Source of the DNA: a bacterium
GTDB lineage: Bacteria > Patescibacteriota > Minisyncoccia > 2-02-FULL-40-12 > IGHO2-01-FULL-4-A
Reading direction: 5' to 3'
Assembly: GCA_030698885.1 (NCBI GenBank)
Contig: JAUYLN010000033.1
Location: 1 to 43,836 of the forward strand
DNA: 43,836 nucleotides
Within the stretch, counting starts at the first letter, position 1. The number at the start of each line of letters is the position of its first letter. A program made the translations under genes and the position numbers. The notes under the pieces are model-generated. The model saw nothing but the letters and a program-made list of their open reading frames with translations, was not told the origin of the DNA and did no database searches. Of the stretch, positions 1-15,432 are shown piece by piece.

Positions 1-593
1 CAAGGATCGGCATCGTCAATTTCTCCTTTGAATATCTCAATTTTCTTCACCTTATCTTTAATAATTTCTCTCATTATTTCTCTTCTTGTCTCCAGTAATT
101 CTTTAAACTCTCTAGGGGTAGGATTCCCTTCTATTTCTATATTATCAATATTGATAAAAAGCCTACTTATCGGCCTATAAATATTGAGCCACAGCTTGAA
201 TTCTCTGTGTTTATTAATGACCAGGGCCAGCCAAAACTCATCCTCACTATTTGCAAAACCCCTCATGGTGTCCGTGTCTATACTACTAAACTCCGCGGGC
301 ATGAATACATGGCTATGCCACCAAAGCTTTGCCCTGCCTATTTCTTTAAATTTTTCGCTTCTGGCCATCTCAAGTTCCCATTTGTGCCTGCCCAATTCAC
401 TTAGATGAGTGCCCCCCGAGCTACATTCCTGCTCTAAAATTATGGCTTCGCCATAGATTCTGAAAGTATTCCTAATTGCTTCAACATTTGCAAACCCCGA
501 TATTTCTATGCCGCAAATATCTATGGCCAGCATAATGTCGGCAAGAGTAACCGGCTCAAAAGTAGCCCTAAACTCCTTCTCAATAATATTCAT
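1..593 (-). CDS. JAMM/JAB-domain isopeptidase (partial, runs off the left edge)
   Basis: The frame is open from the ATG at 593 to base 1, giving 197 residues with no stop. It carries the full zinc signature of the JAB1/MPN/Mov34 metalloprotease family: a glutamate in IEISGF (about E30), then LWWHSHV with H93 and H95, seven residues, S103, two residues and D106 (HxH-x7-SxxD). In this family the motif cleaves isopeptide or C-terminal bonds of ubiquitin-like proteins, or acts in sulfur-carrier processing. The start is supported by a consensus AAGGAGGT eight bases upstream. It overlaps the end of the 614-aa gene by 14 bp, which suggests translational coupling. The C-terminal part past the JAMM core looks like a helical extension. 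The family is confident; the substrate is not known from this window. Confidence 0.85.
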   Translation of the reverse strand, partial: MNIIEKEFRATFEPVTLADIMLAIDICGIEISGFANVEAIRNTFRIYGEAIILEQECSSGGTHLSELGRHKWELEMARSEKFKEIGRAKLWWHSHVFMPAEFSSIDTDTMRGFANSEDEFWLALVINKHREFKLWLNIYRPISRLFINIDNIEIEGNPTPREFKELLETRREIMREIIKDKVKKIEIFKGEIDDADP

Positions 594-2424
594 GTGTATT
601 ACCTCCTTGAGTCTTGTCTCTTTTGTCGCATATCCCGCACTCTATCAGCTCTCCAGCTAAAGAAAGCAGTCTAGAAAAATTAAAATGCCGGTTAAGCCTT
701 GCTATCTCAGCAATAATTTCTTCATGGTTTTTGAAATTTGAAGGAATAACCTTAAGACCCTTAACAGTCTCGCCGTCAACAATCACTTTTTCAAGAATTT
801 TATTTTCTGAATTAAAAAATAGAACTGGAGCAAAATCACCGCAAACCTTTAATATGTAGCCGAATATATTACCGCAGGCGGTATTTTCTTTAAATTCATG
901 CGTAAAATATATTAGCATCTCGCTTTCATTAGCCTCAACATTGTAAACATCCGCTCTGTCAACAAGAAGCCTGCATTCTTTAGCCGCCGTACCCGCCGTA
1001 TCGGAAAATTTATCTTCCAAATATTCTTTAGATGTACCAAAACTTTTTATTCTCATCCTTGCCTCATTTCTTCTATTATTGATTTTTTTTAAAAAACCAT
1101 AGCTTCCCGTTATCTTCCTTCTTATATCCTCGGAATTTCTGCCGATTACTGTTTCCGACAAAAGCTCTATGAATTTTTTCTTCTCTTCTTCTCTTTCTTC
1201 ATCATTTTCATATTTGTCATCAATATTTTTTTCGGGTCCCGGGTCTTTTATCAATGAATTACCCAGCAAAGACCAGAGATTGGGCGGGGTTATTTCTTTT
1301 TGAAGAAACGTAAATATCAAATTCACTAAAGGCAGGAGATCTAAATTCAACATAAGCTTATCCATGTCATTTTTAAGACCTTTGTCGTGTGCCACGCTTT
1401 CTATGCCAAAGCAGGTTGATTCTTCCTGGGTATGACCGTGGTAAAATGACCCCCTGTCTCTTCCCTGGTGAAAATGAATGCCTACGGTAGACTTAATGCT
1501 CGGGTCTATAAATATTTCAAACTTTCCTATGCAGTATGTGCTATTGCCAACCTGCTTGTTTAATTCTTCGGTCCTTATCTCAATACATTTTTTACCTTTT
1601 CTCTCGGTAACTCTTATGGTTTGCACATGAGCCCAGGTTAAAATCTCATCAAATATACCGCCAAAATCCCTCTCACGGCATTTTTCTTCAAGCCATTCCA
1701 GGGAATCCTCCAGCTCGGAAATCTCAAGCAACATTTTAAAATGTTTTTGCCTGTATTTTTCTCTGCTTGAAACAGCATCTCCCAGACTATCGGTTATCAA
1801 ATTGTATCTTTTATATCCTTCTTTATCTAAAAACAATTTTATACCGGAAGATATTCTATCAACCCTTTCCGACCTAATCGTTTTAAACACAATGTACCGC
1901 CTCAACCTTTTATAGGCCACCTGCAATTTACTGTTTTTCGTCCTGTCAAAAAGAAGGTTAGCCGAATAGCCTAAGGACCAATAAAGAATCTGCTCCAAAA
2001 TATTCGCAGTTTCTTTGCTGGTGCAGCCATCCCTCAATATTTTAGGAAAAATAAAAATATTACCCTTTGAAATACAGGCTATTCTATCCCCTTCCGGGCT
2101 TGTAACACTTATCCCTGCTGAAGATACACCCGCCTCTTCTATTACTACATTCCCCGGCATTCTCTGACCAAAAATAAAATTAGGACTCTCATTTATCTTG
2201 GCGGAAACATTTTCCGGACATGTGTCAAAATGGATAAAAACATTATTGTGAGTATCAAATTCTTTTATCTTTTTTGCCGGCCAGTCTATTTTTATATTTA
2301 ACTCTAATCTTTCAGCGAAGGGCTTTATATAAGGAATGAAACCCTCAAGAAGAACTACGGACTCCCTGCTGACACAGAGATCCGGAAAAACCTCAACACT
2401 TCCTGCGGTACTATCCTTTTTCAT
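580..2424 (-). CDS. 614-aa protein with a possible E2/RWD-like HxH...CxG motif
   Basis: I do not recognise the whole protein. Residues about 325-370 read FYHGHTQEESTCFG (H329, H331, C338) followed by a leucine-rich helix ending near FTFLQKE. An HxH, short gap, CxG and leucine-rich helix arrangement is seen in divergent prokaryotic E2/UBC-like proteins that sit beside JAB genes, so C338 is a candidate thioester cysteine. This is motif reading only. The first 320 residues and the charged C-terminal 200 residues show no domain I can name; a hydrophilic stretch rich in D, E and K lies near 405-425. The start at 2424 has AAGGAGA six bases upstream. The 3' end overlaps the JAMM gene, so the two are probably co-translated. 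An AAA/protease pair lies upstream beyond a terminator and a repeat. Confidence 0.75.
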   Translation of the reverse strand: MKKDSTAGSVEVFPDLCVSRESVVLLEGFIPYIKPFAERLELNIKIDWPAKKIKEFDTHNNVFIHFDTCPENVSAKINESPNFIFGQRMPGNVVIEEAGVSSAGISVTSPEGDRIACISKGNIFIFPKILRDGCTSKETANILEQILYWSLGYSANLLFDRTKNSKLQVAYKRLRRYIVFKTIRSERVDRISSGIKLFLDKEGYKRYNLITDSLGDAVSSREKYRQKHFKMLLEISELEDSLEWLEEKCRERDFGGIFDEILTWAHVQTIRVTERKGKKCIEIRTEELNKQVGNSTYCIGKFEIFIDPSIKSTVGIHFHQGRDRGSFYHGHTQEESTCFGIESVAHDKGLKNDMDKLMLNLDLLPLVNLIFTFLQKEITPPNLWSLLGNSLIKDPGPEKNIDDKYENDEEREEEKKKFIELLSETVIGRNSEDIRRKITGSYGFLKKINNRRNEARMRIKSFGTSKEYLEDKFSDTAGTAAKECRLLVDRADVYNVEANESEMLIYFTHEFKENTACGNIFGYILKVCGDFAPVLFFNSENKILEKVIVDGETVKGLKVIPSNFKNHEEIIAEIARLNRHFNFSRLLSLAGELIECGICDKRDKTQGGNTHEYY

Positions 2425-2437
2425 GCCGTTCTCCTTT

Positions 2438-2704
2438 GGAGAGCAGAATTCGAACTTTCATCAAGTTGAGAAGTCCGAAAATGAGATGATTTCTAGGCGC
2501 GACGACGAAAGTGTGGTTTAAACCACACTGAGGAGGAGCAACGAAGAAAGCATCCATTTTCGGATTTCCCTTCGGGCGGGCGAATTCGGGCAAGCTTATT
2601 TGTCGCTCGTCGCTCACGTACATTAAGTACGCATCACTCCTCGCTTCGCGAATCTTGCCCGAATTCGCTCCGCTCAAGTGATGCTAGTTCGAATCCTGCT
2701 CTCC
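2438..2704. repeat. Structured TIR element, copy A
   Basis: About 267 bp bounded by imperfect terminal inverted repeats: left GGAGAGCAGAATTCGAACT, right (reverse complement) GGAGAGCAGGATTCGAACT, each continuing into CATCA and TTGAG. Two inner hairpins follow. The first has the stem AAGTCCGAAAATG/CATTTTCGGATTT with GTGTGGTTTAAACCACAC in its loop. The second has the stem GCGAATTCGGGCAAG/CTTGCCCGAATTCGC with the loop core GCTCGTCGCTCACGTAC. Copies B and C share the layout and loops with different stem sequences. The end GTTCGAATCCTGCTCTCC looks like a tRNA T-loop and acceptor 3' strand. This element fills the gap between the AAA gene and the 614-aa gene. An open frame on the minus strand across it (2411-2677) is not a credible gene. 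Confidence 0.85.
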
Positions 2705-2749
2705 TAATTGTCAAAGCAACTACAAGTAGGTTAACAAAAATAATTCAAA

Positions 2750-2780
2750 TAAAAAAGCCCCGCCTTAGTTTGCGGCGGGA
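2750..2780 (-). terminator. Terminator after the AAA gene
   Basis: On the minus strand, CCCGCC and GGCGGG form a hairpin around a short loop, followed by a six-T run. It lies just beyond the AAA stop codon, so the protease/AAA unit may end here unless there is readthrough. Confidence 0.8.
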
Positions 2781-2789
2781 CAGTTCATT

Positions 2790-4679
2790 TTATTTGCCGG
2801 AAGAAAACATCTGGTCAACCGTTTTAACACCGGAAGCGCCAATGCCTCTGGCTATTTTCGCCCATCGGCCTTCTTTAGGAACAAACCTTTTGCTGTTGCA
2901 ATAGCTTAGGGCAACCTCAGTCATTCTTTCATATGTAGCGACATTGCGTGAAACAGGAAAATCATTCAGTGCACGGATTAAATGCTCTTCACTTAAAGGC
3001 TCGCGCTGTTTGCCCCTGCTGGCGATGGCATAAGCACGCCTTAAAATCTCTTCAACTTGAGCCCCCGTAAACAATATCTGGGCCTCTTCATCTTTAGGAC
3101 TGGCCATACCGGACATATGATACTCATCCCAATTGCAAACCATAATCTTATCTTCTTTTACATGATAGTGAGTTCTTTCGCTGAATTTCTCCAGGTTTTC
3201 CTTTTTTAAAACATGCCTGAAATTACTGTCGCCATCATGACCGGCCTTGAGCTCCATTTTATGCAAAAGAGCCAGACAGATATCAAGTATCTCTTTTTTA
3301 GTTGATGGCGGAAAAAACGGCAATATAAGATCAAACCGACCCTCTCTCATCTGGGCAGGGTCTATCAGGTCGGGCCTGTTTGAGGCCGCGAGCCAGAGAA
3401 CCTTGCCCCGTAAAGAAGTGTCCGACATAATCTCAAAGAGCCTGCTTTGCATTCTTTGGCCTGTGCCCGTATTGTCGCCGGCCGACATTCTGGCCTGTAA
3501 TTGCTGGTCAATCTCATCAATAAAGACAACAGCCGGAGCTGAACCTATTATTATTTCCAGAGAAAATTCCAGATTTCTTTCAGACTGACCGAGCCACATT
3601 TCTCTGGTGTTTTTCATTCTCAAGAAAGGCATCTTTAATATGTACGCGATAACCTGGGCAAAAAGAGATTTGCAGGTTCCGGGCGCGCCAAGGAGTAACA
3701 CCCCCATCGGTATAGCAGCTAAATTGCCTCTCCTGAAGTCATGCTCCAGCTCTCTAATAAATTCCTTGTAAGTATCCAGAGCGCCAATTGTATCAAGGTC
3801 AAAAATGGGTTCAATGACTTCCAGAAGACCGCCCGATACTTCTTTGATGTACTTGTTTTTCTTATCAAAAATAGTTTCTTGAGTTATGGGCTTGTTGCCT
3901 AAGATAGCCTCGCGCACGATGCCGTCAATAACATTAAGCGAAACTCCTCCGCTTAATCTGCTGAATTCATCCGGCCTCAGACTTCCTTTTGCTAACTTTT
4001 TTGAATAATTAGCATAAACAAGTTTCCTTTCATTCTGTCCCGGAAAAGGCACCTTTATAGGGAATATGCCGTTAGTTTCTGATCTTAATTTAGGATCTAC
4101 AGATGACAAACTATCCGTCAGCATAACTACAAAATTACCGGCTTCCCTGATAAGACTGTTTCTGGCTAATGATAACACCATTACTAACGCATCTCTATCG
4201 CTGCTACAGGAAGAACAAGCGGCATTGGGCGGTATCAGAGTTTCCACATAATTAAAGACAACAATAAAAAAAGGAGTGGACTTATCAGAATTATTATTTG
4301 TTTCCAGCAGTTCGTTAAATAAAGATATGGCATAACTTAAGGAGCCCCTATTTTTTCTAAAATCATCCACGGCTATGTTTACACCACCACCGTCAGGCAG
4401 TGGTATCTCTTCAGGTTTTAATTTTGCCAGTATTTCTAAGAATCTTGCTTCTTCTTTCAGCCCGGTAAAGTGGATTCCAAATCCCCTGGTAAAGAATATC
4501 TTGTGCTCGGCTTTAGATAGACAGGAATTGCTTAACACATAGTTAATGAGGGGAGAAAGTTTTATCTCCCCTTTTTTGTCCTGGTCTATCAGACTGTCTG
4601 CCGTGTTCAAATATAGGAGCACACAGTGAGTCGCCCGTGAGAGCAATTTGCTGTTCATCTCGGCTACTATTTCTTTCAT
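2790..4679 (-). CDS. AAA-family unfoldase with a degenerate N-terminal AAA-like half
   Basis: A 629-aa ATPase. The C-terminal module has a P-loop GAPGTCKS at residues 330-337, Walker B VVFIDEID near 388, sensor-1 asparagine in AASNRPD and an arginine finger in MREGRFD. MWLGQSERN matches the pore-loop position of protein unfoldases, with W-L-G in place of Y-V-G. The last P-loop glycine is replaced by cysteine, which is unusual. Residues about 1-280 look like a second AAA fold without Walker motifs (FFIVVFNYVETLIPP at the Walker B position). There is no ClpX/ClpA-type IGF loop, no zinc-binding ClpX domain and no C-terminal HbYX. The ATG overlaps the ClpP-like stop by 4 bp and has AAGGAGA upstream, so it likely partners that protease. 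It is closer to the FtsH/Cdc48/proteasomal-ATPase AAA group than to ClpX. Confidence 0.9.
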   Translation of the reverse strand: MKEIVAEMNSKLLSRATHCVLLYLNTADSLIDQDKKGEIKLSPLINYVLSNSCLSKAEHKIFFTRGFGIHFTGLKEEARFLEILAKLKPEEIPLPDGGGVNIAVDDFRKNRGSLSYAISLFNELLETNNNSDKSTPFFIVVFNYVETLIPPNAACSSCSSDRDALVMVLSLARNSLIREAGNFVVMLTDSLSSVDPKLRSETNGIFPIKVPFPGQNERKLVYANYSKKLAKGSLRPDEFSRLSGGVSLNVIDGIVREAILGNKPITQETIFDKKNKYIKEVSGGLLEVIEPIFDLDTIGALDTYKEFIRELEHDFRRGNLAAIPMGVLLLGAPGTCKSLFAQVIAYILKMPFLRMKNTREMWLGQSERNLEFSLEIIIGSAPAVVFIDEIDQQLQARMSAGDNTGTGQRMQSRLFEIMSDTSLRGKVLWLAASNRPDLIDPAQMREGRFDLILPFFPPSTKKEILDICLALLHKMELKAGHDGDSNFRHVLKKENLEKFSERTHYHVKEDKIMVCNWDEYHMSGMASPKDEEAQILFTGAQVEEILRRAYAIASRGKQREPLSEEHLIRALNDFPVSRNVATYERMTEVALSYCNSKRFVPKEGRWAKIARGIGASGVKTVDQMFSSGK

Positions 4680-5452
4680 CGCTGTTCTCCTTGCCTGTTA
4701 ATAGCTTTGGCTGACGCACGGAATATTTCATCAAGCATTGCATCGCCCGGCTCAATTACTTCATCAATCATGCCCGCCTTTTTAGCCTGGTCGGGGCTTA
4801 AATACCTTTCGTTTTCAAGGAATCTATTAATAAGGTTCAGTCTCGTTTTTTTATTGGTGGCAATCTCATTTAAAGTCGCCTCGTCAAAATCATCAAGACT
4901 GTCTTTAGAATAATGCTCCGGCGCATAAAATTCCGGAATCCTGCTGTTTTCTGAAATAAAAGACTCCAGCTTTTTAGTGATAGACTTCAAATATTCTTGT
5001 GTATATTCAATATCCGTTGGCTTGCCTTTACCGGCAGATATCATTCCGCAATGAGCATGGACCGTTGAGTTGCGAAGAGTAAATCTCTTGCCTTTTGTGC
5101 CGGCTATCAGTATTACTCCGGCCATACTCATGGCACTTAGAATATTAATTGTCCAAACTTCTATACCCTTATTCTTTAAATGTTCTATGGCCTGTATAAT
5201 AGTGAACCCGGCAGTCACATCTCCCCCAACACTGTTTATAACTATTTTTACCGGTTCTTTAGACTCCATTCCCAACATAACAAGGGCGCCGAACATATCT
5301 TCAGCCAGAAAGCTTGTACTTCTGTCAGAAACTAAATTTACGCTAGACACGGACCTAACCGGTCCGAATAAAGTAACTATCCTGGAATCTCTTTCAAAAA
5401 TATCCCATGGACTGACTAGGTTAACCGGTGCATTTCCCCAGGGAATTTTCAT
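4676..5452 (-). CDS. ClpP-like serine protease
   Basis: A 258-aa member of the ClpP/crotonase-fold protease family (ClpP is usually about 200 aa). Visible landmarks are INSVGGDVTAGFTIIQAI (oxyanion/strand region), AMSMAGVILIAGTKGKRF with the nucleophile S109 in the place of the usual ASMG serine, and NSTVHAHCG with H134 at the catalytic histidine. The usual aspartate region (ERDRFLS in ordinary ClpP) reads ENERYLS, so the triad acid may be E215 instead of Asp. A helical insertion of about 50 residues lies between the histidine and this region. The strong SD AGGAGA precedes the ATG. It is translationally coupled to the AAA gene, so the pair probably forms an ATP-dependent protease. It is not the housekeeping clpP by context. 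Confidence 0.9.
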   Translation of the reverse strand: MKIPWGNAPVNLVSPWDIFERDSRIVTLFGPVRSVSSVNLVSDRSTSFLAEDMFGALVMLGMESKEPVKIVINSVGGDVTAGFTIIQAIEHLKNKGIEVWTINILSAMSMAGVILIAGTKGKRFTLRNSTVHAHCGMISAGKGKPTDIEYTQEYLKSITKKLESFISENSRIPEFYAPEHYSKDSLDDFDEATLNEIATNKKTRLNLINRFLENERYLSPDQAKKAGMIDEVIEPGDAMLDEIFRASAKAINRQGEQR

Positions 5453-5553
5453 TTTAGTTCTCCTGATTAAATTATCAAATAACTTCTAATAAATATTTAA
5501 CATTTTTGGACCAAGGTCAACCTTTACAAACGGAGGGTTAAACTTGAATTAAA

Positions 5554-5585
5554 AATCCCCACGCACATGCACAGGTGTGGGGATT
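5554..5585 (-). terminator. Terminator after the Lon-domain gene
   Basis: AATCCCCAC and GTGGGGATT pair around a 14-base loop with A and T tracts on both sides. The hairpin touches the stop codon of the Lon-domain gene and lies in the 132-bp gap before the ClpP-like gene, so it may act as an attenuator inside the locus. Confidence 0.7.
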
Positions 5586-6280
5586 TATTTTTCTATATCT
5601 TTGGAATTGGTCTTTAGCCCTTCCGCAGCGCAAAAAATATCAATTTCACCCTGAAGTATCTCTATGATTGACTGAAGCCTATCCACCGGATTATCACTCA
5701 GAAGAACTTCCAGTTTCGTCTTGTTATCAATGTGGCGCATAAAAGCAAGGGCAATCCACGGCAAGTTCAGGGCTGATTCCATCTCTCTCAATGAAATATG
5801 TTCTTTTATGTATGTAAAACTTTCAATAAATTCAGGACTCTCTTCCGGAATTACCCTTAATAATCTGCTCAAAAGATCATATATGGCCTGCAGTCCGCCA
5901 AAAAGCAAACTTTTATCAATATCTTGCTCCTTGTCTTCAATGGCCTCTACGGAAACCCTCCAAACCTGTCCGGACTTATCAAAATACAAATTTTTTATCC
6001 TCGCCCTGTACTCACCGACAAATCTGACTTTTTCTTCATTCAACTCTACCGAGCTGATAATGCCCACTTCCTGAAAATCTTCTACTTTCTCCGCTTCATT
6101 ACTGCAACTCTTGGCCAATATAATACATTTAGGCATGGGCTCTCTTAATATTTTACCCACTAAATCGGCTGTGGATTTTTTAAGCGGCAAAGCAATAGTA
6201 AAAGAAGTTTTTGGATAAACAAGGGAAGTTGATACCGTATAAACAGGCGGCCTAAATTCAACTATCTTATTTGATGGCAT
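5585..6280 (-). CDS. Stand-alone LON substrate-binding (PUA-like) domain protein
   Basis: A 231-aa protein that matches the N-terminal domain of Lon proteases: a beta-rich start with the proline-rich entry PPVYTVSTSLVYPKTSFTIALPL, the strand EVGIISSVELNEEKVRFVGEYRARIKNL, and a helical C-terminal half ending with LNLPWIALAFMRHIDNKTKLEVLLSDNPVDRLQ, where the Lon family has its L-P-x-x-L-A and LLE-x-x-D pattern. No ATPase or protease domain follows, so it cannot be Lon itself. Such single-domain proteins are usually adaptors or unknowns. It is the first gene of the minus-strand locus, with a good AGGAGA ahead of the ATG, and its position suggests a role in substrate delivery to the AAA/ClpP-like pair. 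That role is an inference. Confidence 0.85.
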   Translation of the reverse strand: MPSNKIVEFRPPVYTVSTSLVYPKTSFTIALPLKKSTADLVGKILREPMPKCIILAKSCSNEAEKVEDFQEVGIISSVELNEEKVRFVGEYRARIKNLYFDKSGQVWRVSVEAIEDKEQDIDKSLLFGGLQAIYDLLSRLLRVIPEESPEFIESFTYIKEHISLREMESALNLPWIALAFMRHIDNKTKLEVLLSDNPVDRLQSIIEILQGEIDIFCAAEGLKTNSKDIEK

Positions 6281-6372
6281 TTATTTCTCCTGTTTGAATA
6301 ACGACTCTGATATGTTAAGGCACTTTTAAAAAGCTAGCACGACGCATCAACTTTTAGAAGTGGAGATCTTAG

Positions 6373-6656
6373 GAGAACAGGATTCAAACTATCATCAATT
6401 GAGCGGAGCCGCGTCAAACGTGGCTGTGCGAATTTGGCTAATATTCAAGGCGAGAGGAGCGATGTGTATCATTTGATACGTGAGCGACGAACAACGCAGA
6501 AGATTAGCCAGATTCGCCCGCCCTGTAGGGAAGCTCAAAAATGGCTGATTTCTTTGTTACTCCTCCTCAATGTACCTTTGGGCACACTTTCGTCGTCACG
6601 TCGCGAAATCATCCATTTTTGAGCTTCTCAATTTGACGATAGTTTGAAACCTGCAC
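6373..6656. repeat. Structured TIR element, copy B (inverted relative to A and C)
   Basis: Ends read AGGAGAACAGGATTCAAACT on the left and, less well kept, AGTTTGAAACCTGCACTCC on the right. The inner stems are GCGAATTTGGCTAAT/ATTAGCCAGATTCGC and AAGCTCAAAAATG/CATTTTTGAGCTT. Their loops keep the conserved words seen in copies A and C in reverse orientation (GTGAGCGACGAACAACGC; TACTCCTCCTCAATG). The short open frame inside (6434-6622) is a by-product of the repeat. It fills most of the 559-bp gap between the Lon-domain gene and the first glycosyltransferase. Confidence 0.85.
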
Positions 6657-6703
6657 TCCCACTTCTAAAAAAATACTATTAATGGTAATATTATTTATAA
6701 TGA

Positions 6704-15161: not shown

Positions 15162-15432
15162 TAGGAGAGCAGGATTCAAACTAGCATCAGCCTGAGAAGC
15201 CCAAAAATGAGATGATTTCTAGGCCCGACGACGCAGATGTATTAAATATACTTCAAGGAGGAGGAACAAAGAAATCATCTATTTTTGGGCTTCCCTGCCG
15301 GGCGTGACAGGTTTGCTTATCTACTCCGTTGCTCGTCGCTCATGTGCATTAAGCACACATCACTCCTCGCGCCTTGCATATAGGCAAACCTGTTCTCGCT
15401 CAATTGATGATAGTTTGAATCCTGCTCTCCTG
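15162..15432. repeat. Structured TIR element, copy C
   Basis: The best preserved copy. Ends are AGGAGAGCAGGATTCAAACT and its complement AGTTTGAATCCTGCTCTCCT. The inner stems are AAGCCCAAAAATG/TATTTTTGGGCTT and ACAGGTTTGC/GCAAACCTGT. The loops keep ATGATTTCTAGG, GACGACG, GGAGGAG, GCTCGTCGCTCA and CATCACTCCTCGC as in A and B. It fills the gap between tRNA-Leu and a small zinc-ribbon gene, and its right end lies only a few bases from that gene's ribosome binding site. Confidence 0.9.

Follow-up and report, generated by a model that had tools for sequence, protein, structure and literature searches.

A candidate ubiquitin-like tagging and proteolysis locus in tiny uncultured Patescibacteria

Does a small cluster of patescibacterial genes encode a pathway that tags proteins with a ubiquitin-like modifier (Ubl) and delivers them to a protease of its own? 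The question is raised by the first 6,280 bases of a 43,836-nucleotide stretch of DNA (hereafter, the window), which is the entire contig JAUYLN010000033.1 (C37) of a genome of 0.96 Mb and approximately 95% completeness (assembly GCA_030698885.1; G000). Five open reading frames (ORFs) run there on the minus strand from position 6280 down to 3 and encode a Lon N-terminal domain, a ClpP-like peptidase, an AAA ATPase, a protein of 614 amino acids (aa) and a JAMM metalloprotease. An earlier note, made from the sequence alone, had named these five same-strand genes and their domains; a check by ORF and Pfam located all of them where it had placed them, and the two junction overlaps that it gave are exact, at 4 bp (ClpP/AAA) and 14 bp (614-aa/JAMM). 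We suggest, with a probability of roughly 0.6, that the locus couples Ubl conjugation to an ATP-dependent protease dedicated to it. Tagging, the conjugation half of this proposal, is well supported at the level of sequence by the gene set and its residues; E2 chemistry, docking of the AAA on ClpP and use of the tag as a degradation signal are presumed.

Conservation of the locus among relatives

As six other genomes carry AAA, a 614-aa homologue and JAMM in this order amid different neighbouring genes, the locus is not a chance assembly. The AAA alignment, scanned against the genome contigs of GTDB by short peptide patterns (which undercounts), returned three loci, from Yanofskybacteria RIFCSPHIGHO2_01_FULL_44_24 (L006), Wolfebacteria RIFCSPLOWO2_01_FULL_45_19 (L007) and Parcubacteria RIFCSPLOWO2_01_FULL_48_18 (L008). 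All three share the single order ClpP–AAA–E2-like–JAMM–ThiF/E1–Ubl (the E2-like protein being the 614-aa homologue) within differing flanks, that is, holA and a ClpA-like gene in L006, miaA and gatB in L007, and genes for an S1-type protein and a YraN-like protein in L008. Given that the AAA proteins of these loci are 43–44% identical to that of the window and the E2-like proteins only 24–29%, the order from ClpP to Ubl has outlived much divergence. Searching 384 genomes of the class with an AAA profile added three further Paceibacteria loci (L056, L019 and L020), in which AAA, E2-like, JAMM and E1 genes follow in the same order, with a Ubl gene in L056 and L019. The seven AAAs linked to Ubl genes group as a single clade in the AAA tree (support 100/100), with the ClpP loci as one subclade (99/99) and L056, L019 and L020 as a second (99/97). 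The earlier note had held that homologous loci mostly devoid of the JAMM and 614-aa genes would speak against its idea; both genes are retained in all seven homologous loci of this AAA subfamily. The other adverse outcome that it named, unrelated genes on the left and no Ubl or E1 in any relative, did not arise either, as relatives have both.

Other AAA matches (1e-45 to 1e-75) fall into a separate clade of the tree, and no E2, E1, Ubl or JAMM genes were found within the stretches read around them. Among AAA proteins that lack accompanying Ubl genes, the closest relatives (L061 5680–8960 and L062 2899–9174) adjoin VWA-like proteins that start with MGGGGxYYDRDVTD and a small DUF2997-like protein, and constitute a separate conserved cluster. 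Counts of relatives come from genome samples: a search with the 614-aa protein among 286 genomes of the class matched 2 other genomes; its profile found one other of the 45 genomes in the window's own order and, in a second order, 2 of 244 genomes plus a marginal coiled-coil match (8e-5), one of them (G923) probably being the genome of L008; and there was no match among the other 379 genomes of the phylum sample. Plasmids yielded no relatives of the 614-aa protein. A viral origin was rejected, as viral contigs yielded no relatives of the 614-aa protein, the AAA or the E1 in scans that detect close relatives only.

The conjugation genes

The JAMM/JAB metalloprotease gene (3..593, minus strand; 197 aa) has no stop codon because the contig ends at base 1, just before it. 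Its metal site (E30, H93-S-H95, S103 and D106) is complete, and the pattern E, HxH, S, D is invariant in 10 homologues including that of the window. Pfam recovers it through Prok-JAB (PF14464) at just 0.0098, below the cut-off, and the best solved relative is Caldiarchaeum Rpn11, a weak match (E = 0.006).

A ThiF/E1 protein and a glycine-ended beta-grasp protein had been predicted next to the JAMM gene, and this was borne out in all three relatives that share ClpP, AAA, the 614-aa protein and JAMM: the next two genes after JAMM encode a ThiF protein (PF00899, 1e-17 to 3e-15) and then a Ubl of 93–104 aa. The E1 is a single domain of 211–254 aa encoded by a separate gene; in the relatives it scores above the PF00899 cut-off and conserves GxGxxGS, DxDxVExxN and a cysteine that is invariant in 11 of 11 homologues. 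Its best solved relative is the NEDD8 E1 UBA3 (1.8e-7). All five Ubls carry Gly-Gly at or near the terminus (LSGG, LTGGN and IIGGK in L006–L008; RITGG and EIVGGPNIVLS in L056 and L019). The predicted structure of the L006 Ubl (predicted local distance difference test score, pLDDT, of 80) has the beta-beta-alpha-beta-beta order of a beta-grasp fold, and in Foldseek it matches MoaD best (E = 8e-4), as well as ubiquitin, SUMO, NEDD8 and a bacterial Ubl in complex with its deubiquitinase (8tyx); the weak Pfam match of the Ubl is ThiS.

The 614-aa protein (580..2424, minus strand) is the candidate E2. Its putative core (residues ~254–376; window 1297–1665) holds an invariant His and C338 within C-F-G, and is flanked by two long coiled coils together with N- and C-terminal domains. 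The motif C[FW]G is present in 11 of 11 homologues, most of which have His or His-Pro upstream (HPHV...VCFG in L022). A medium-confidence model predicts a helix, 4–5 strands, the cysteine loop and two helices for the core, an order of elements that would be the one expected of the UBC/RWD fold; a Foldseek search with the whole model was not significant, with an RWD domain among the weak matches.

Patescibacterial Ubl loci of a second type, which lack AAA and protease genes, were also observed (L021 8278–9560, L023 8259–11461, L024 7562–10510, L018 8409–10070 and L022 6752–10154). There the E2-like protein ends in the same CFG core and is membrane-anchored in L023 and L024, JAMM and E1 usually accompany it, and some loci encode a small Ubl ending in NGGR, ANG or ENG.

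The protease genes and the proposed route

The ClpP-like serine peptidase (4676..5452, minus strand; 258 aa) matches CLP_protease (PF00574) at 2.7e-28. Alignment to solved ClpPs gives a Ser-His-Glu triad in which Asp is replaced by Glu (E215), as in all four orthologues, and this Glu is preceded by an insertion tens of residues long; the canonical ClpPs of related genomes keep the catalytic Asp. Such a canonical ClpP is present in genome G221 and the genome of L008 and missing from genome G187 and the window's genome, and the Ubl-linked ClpP of G187 is the only one that this genome has. Elsewhere in the window's genome, an SPFH/stomatin-like gene lies between two more ClpP-like genes, both divergent (L036 7383–9821; G000:C27); these two were rejected as parts of the system, as no link was found.

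The Cdc48/VCP-type AAA ATPase (2790..4679, minus strand; 629 aa; PF00004, 2.5e-26) combines an N-terminal half that is AAA-like but divergent with a single AAA domain that looks intact; its best solved relatives are Cdc48/VCP, with two stretches matched. An alignment of seven orthologues locates a W-L-G pore loop (that is, aromatic-hydrophobic-Gly), the Walker B motif DEID and the Arg finger. Walker A in the window reads GAPGTCKS, the last Gly being replaced by Cys, against GAPGTGKT in most relatives; being one base from the usual GK, with the other signature residues intact, it may be either real or an assembly error.

In the route that we propose, JAMM would trim the Ubl precursor behind Gly-Gly (needed for the GGN, GGK and GGPNIVLS ends, two relatives already ending in GG), the single-domain ThiF-type E1 would adenylate the C-terminal glycine and take the Ubl on its cysteine, and the large E2-like protein would accept it on the cysteine of C-[FW]-G for transfer to target proteins. 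The Cdc48-type AAA ring would pull the tagged proteins through its pore into the ClpP-like chamber, a Lon-type protease would stand in place of ClpP in one relative, and JAMM would recycle the Ubl. Three observations point to the degradation half of this route. The ClpP and AAA genes overlap by 1–4 bp in all four ClpP loci. At the same place in L056, a Lon protease domain (PF05362, 1.4e-8), of which the contig edge leaves only the end, lies upstream of AAA. Intact ClpA-like AAA+ proteins in L006 and L019 have IGF or MGF at the position of what we take, from knowledge of ClpA, to be the ClpP-docking loop. ClpA-like proteins without Walker A are also present (L019 1483–2949, L020 10059–11459 and L056 6236–7603), always beside AAA–E2–JAMM–E1, and are perhaps non-enzymatic adaptors. 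The more specific scenario, in which a beta-grasp tag handled by E1 and E2 sends proteins through the Cdc48-type AAA into a ClpP-fold chamber, with proteases (ClpP, Lon) swapped between lineages behind one tagging module, has in our view about even odds.

Several points weigh against this interpretation. The catalytic acid of the peptidase is Glu; the protein belongs to the ClpP fold family but departs from the Ser-His-Asp triad. The AAAs known to dock on ClpP are of the Clp/HslU type; the Ubl-linked AAA is of another kind, and its docking on ClpP is presumptive. For the E2-like protein there is no Pfam family and no significant profile or fold match, and its assignment as a candidate E2 rests on motif, position and the medium-confidence model. 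E1 and Ubl were not found on the other contigs of the window's genome, a blank that for E1 is meaningful because the same E1 profile does detect G187 and G221; to judge from the orthologous loci, both genes presumably lie beyond the contig edge. ClpP is not beside AAA in L056, L019 and L020, which leaves it present in four of the seven loci. Finally, the protease genes and the conjugation genes are set apart by a hairpin that resembles a terminator. The claim of the earlier note that the locus tags or untags proteins and feeds them to a dedicated protease gains support from the gene set and from the E1 and Ubl of the relatives; an obligatory role of ClpP is not supported, and degradation is a presumed outcome.

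The hairpin (2751..2779, minus strand; CCCGCC...GGCGGG and then GCTTTTTT) resembles an intrinsic terminator and directly follows the AAA stop codon; similar hairpins follow AAA in six of the seven loci (window, L006, L007, L008 with a weak T-run, L056 and L020). In the window, the hairpin with its T-run and a 273-bp palindromic element occupy the 365-bp gap between the AAA and 614-aa genes, and on the basis of this hairpin and gap we rejected a single operon of five genes. Within the conjugation genes, E2, JAMM and E1 overlap or nearly touch, and Ubl follows after 17–47 bp. Protease and conjugation genes probably form two linked transcription units, or else a single one with attenuation; this layout revises the earlier picture without weakening the functional link.

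The rival that fares best, which we still consider unlikely, accepts a genuine Ubl conjugation and makes the AAA a non-destructive segregase or remodeller (that is, Cdc48 without a proteasome), with ClpP an accessory acquired in one lineage. AAA–E2–JAMM–E1 is present in all loci readable that far, as against the patchier ClpP, the AAA is closer to Cdc48 than to ClpX or ClpA, and ClpP may have its real partner in the ClpA-like proteins that carry a docking loop; however, the overlap of the ClpP and AAA genes wherever both occur and the Lon protease domain adjoining AAA in L056 argue for a proteolytic role.

Less probable again is that the AAA or ClpP is itself the target of the Ubl, which would serve as an on/off switch, possibly with an anti-phage function, as Cap2 and Cap3 of the cyclic oligonucleotide-based antiphage signalling system (CBASS) act on the nucleotide cyclase. 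CBASS sets of E1, E2 and JAB do modify a neighbouring enzyme (PMC10097602, PMC11153139), and the E1 matches PADLOC E1-E2 models at 3e-9, but the flanks of the present loci are housekeeping genes (holA, mutM, polA; miaA, gatB; gyrA, infB) and not defence islands, and the E1 is a lone domain nearer to PRTRC ThiF. That Ubl, E1 and JAMM serve sulfur transfer and adjoin the protease by accident, as the MoaD and ThiS resemblances of the Ubl might suggest, is highly improbable given that no thiamine or molybdopterin genes lie nearby, JAMM and the E2-like protein are always present and synteny with AAA is conserved in seven genomes.

Neighbouring features, known systems and implications

The stand-alone Lon N-terminal (substrate-binding) domain gene (5585..6280, minus strand; 231 aa; LON_substr_bdg PF02190, 2.1e-11) had been counted as part of the system. 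It is missing from L006, L007 and L008, which have holA, miaA and the gene for an S1-type RNA-binding protein, respectively, in the upstream position. As it is not conserved beside ClpP in relatives, we rejected it as a component; it is probably a neighbour. The palindromic element between the AAA and E2-like genes (2435..2707, no strand assigned) shows inverted repeats and belongs to a repeat of ~270 bp whose ends look like a tRNA T-arm (GTTCGAATCCTGCTCTCC); it has about 9 long copies in the genome and 21 matches there in all, including window 6369–6659 and 15164–15431. As the small ORF at 2411–2677 sits inside this genome-repeated element, it probably does not represent a gene and was rejected as one.

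Among known systems, the plasmid-borne PRTRC cassette (ThiF, A/JAB, B/E2_D and C/Ubl) is the one closest in E1 and JAMM, and it shares the E2–JAB–E1 order. The L006 E1 matches PRTRC_ThiF best among specific families (3.7e-14; hhalign 1.1e-24), and for the E1s in general this is the best or a leading family, with scores far below its cut-off; the JAMM matches protein A (hhalign 1.2e-5). Proteins B and C were rejected as orthologues of the E2-like protein (600 aa, with coiled coils) and the Ubl, as the hhalign comparisons were not significant. The PRTRC cassette has its Ubl gene at the other end. The present loci are chromosomal and showed no ParB or PRTRC proteins C, E or F in L006–L008 and the further loci read. 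In the PRTRC loci read, no ClpP, Cdc48-type AAA or Lon was beside ThiF, and one has a MoxR-type ATPase further on. Bil and Bub likewise combine Ubl, E1, E2 and JAB in one locus, but Bil lacks a protease, and its BilA has two Ubl domains and its BilD is a two-lobed E1 with a Cys domain (PMC11354881), in contrast to the one Ubl domain and minimal E1 here. Type II CBASS has E1–E2–JAMM chemistry in common; its Cap2 fuses E1 and E2 and targets the cyclase, whereas here the E1 is separate and there is no cyclase. The Pup–proteasome system also leads a small protein tag to an AAA ring and a proteolytic chamber, but Pup is unfolded, is attached by PafA and directs degradation by the 20S proteasome (reviews such as PMC6466877), as opposed to the beta-grasp fold, E1/E2 and ClpP found here; no gene for Pup, PafA or 20S was named in the loci, although no genome-wide search for them was made. 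The archaeal SAMP and Caldiarchaeum systems are similar in their beta-grasp tag, ThiF-type E1, JAMM/Rpn11 and Cdc48-type AAA, and differ in that degradation falls to the 20S proteasome (PMC4895103, PMC6043591) rather than to a ClpP-like or Lon-like protease in bacteria.

The E1 and Ubl features of bacterial Ubl conjugation loci (group 6 of Iyer 2006) are found in the relatives, and the JAMM metal site also in the window; we regard the locus as a variant of these loci and not as PRTRC, Bil or Pup. The prokaryotic Ubl operon survey of 2006 (PMC1779556) includes neither ClpP nor AAA in its text, and the papers found on Bil, CBASS, SAMP, Caldiarchaeum and Pup deal with differently arranged systems. 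In agreement with the earlier statement that no described system is known to have this gene set, literature searches found no description of such a locus, with preprints and most subscription papers outside their scope.

The locus looks like a bacterial counterpart of the ubiquitin–proteasome system in a few tiny uncultured Patescibacteria. In bacteria, the known E1/E2/Ubl systems function chiefly in defence against phages or in the chemistry of cofactors, and the tag known to mark proteins for the proteasome is Pup. If the proposed coupling is true, the logic that leads from ubiquitin to a protease emerged, or was put together, in bacteria that have no 20S proteasome, the link between tagging and proteolysis would become testable in a six-gene set that can be rebuilt in E. 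coli, and expensive proteostasis genes in genomes of less than 1.3 Mb would have a function.

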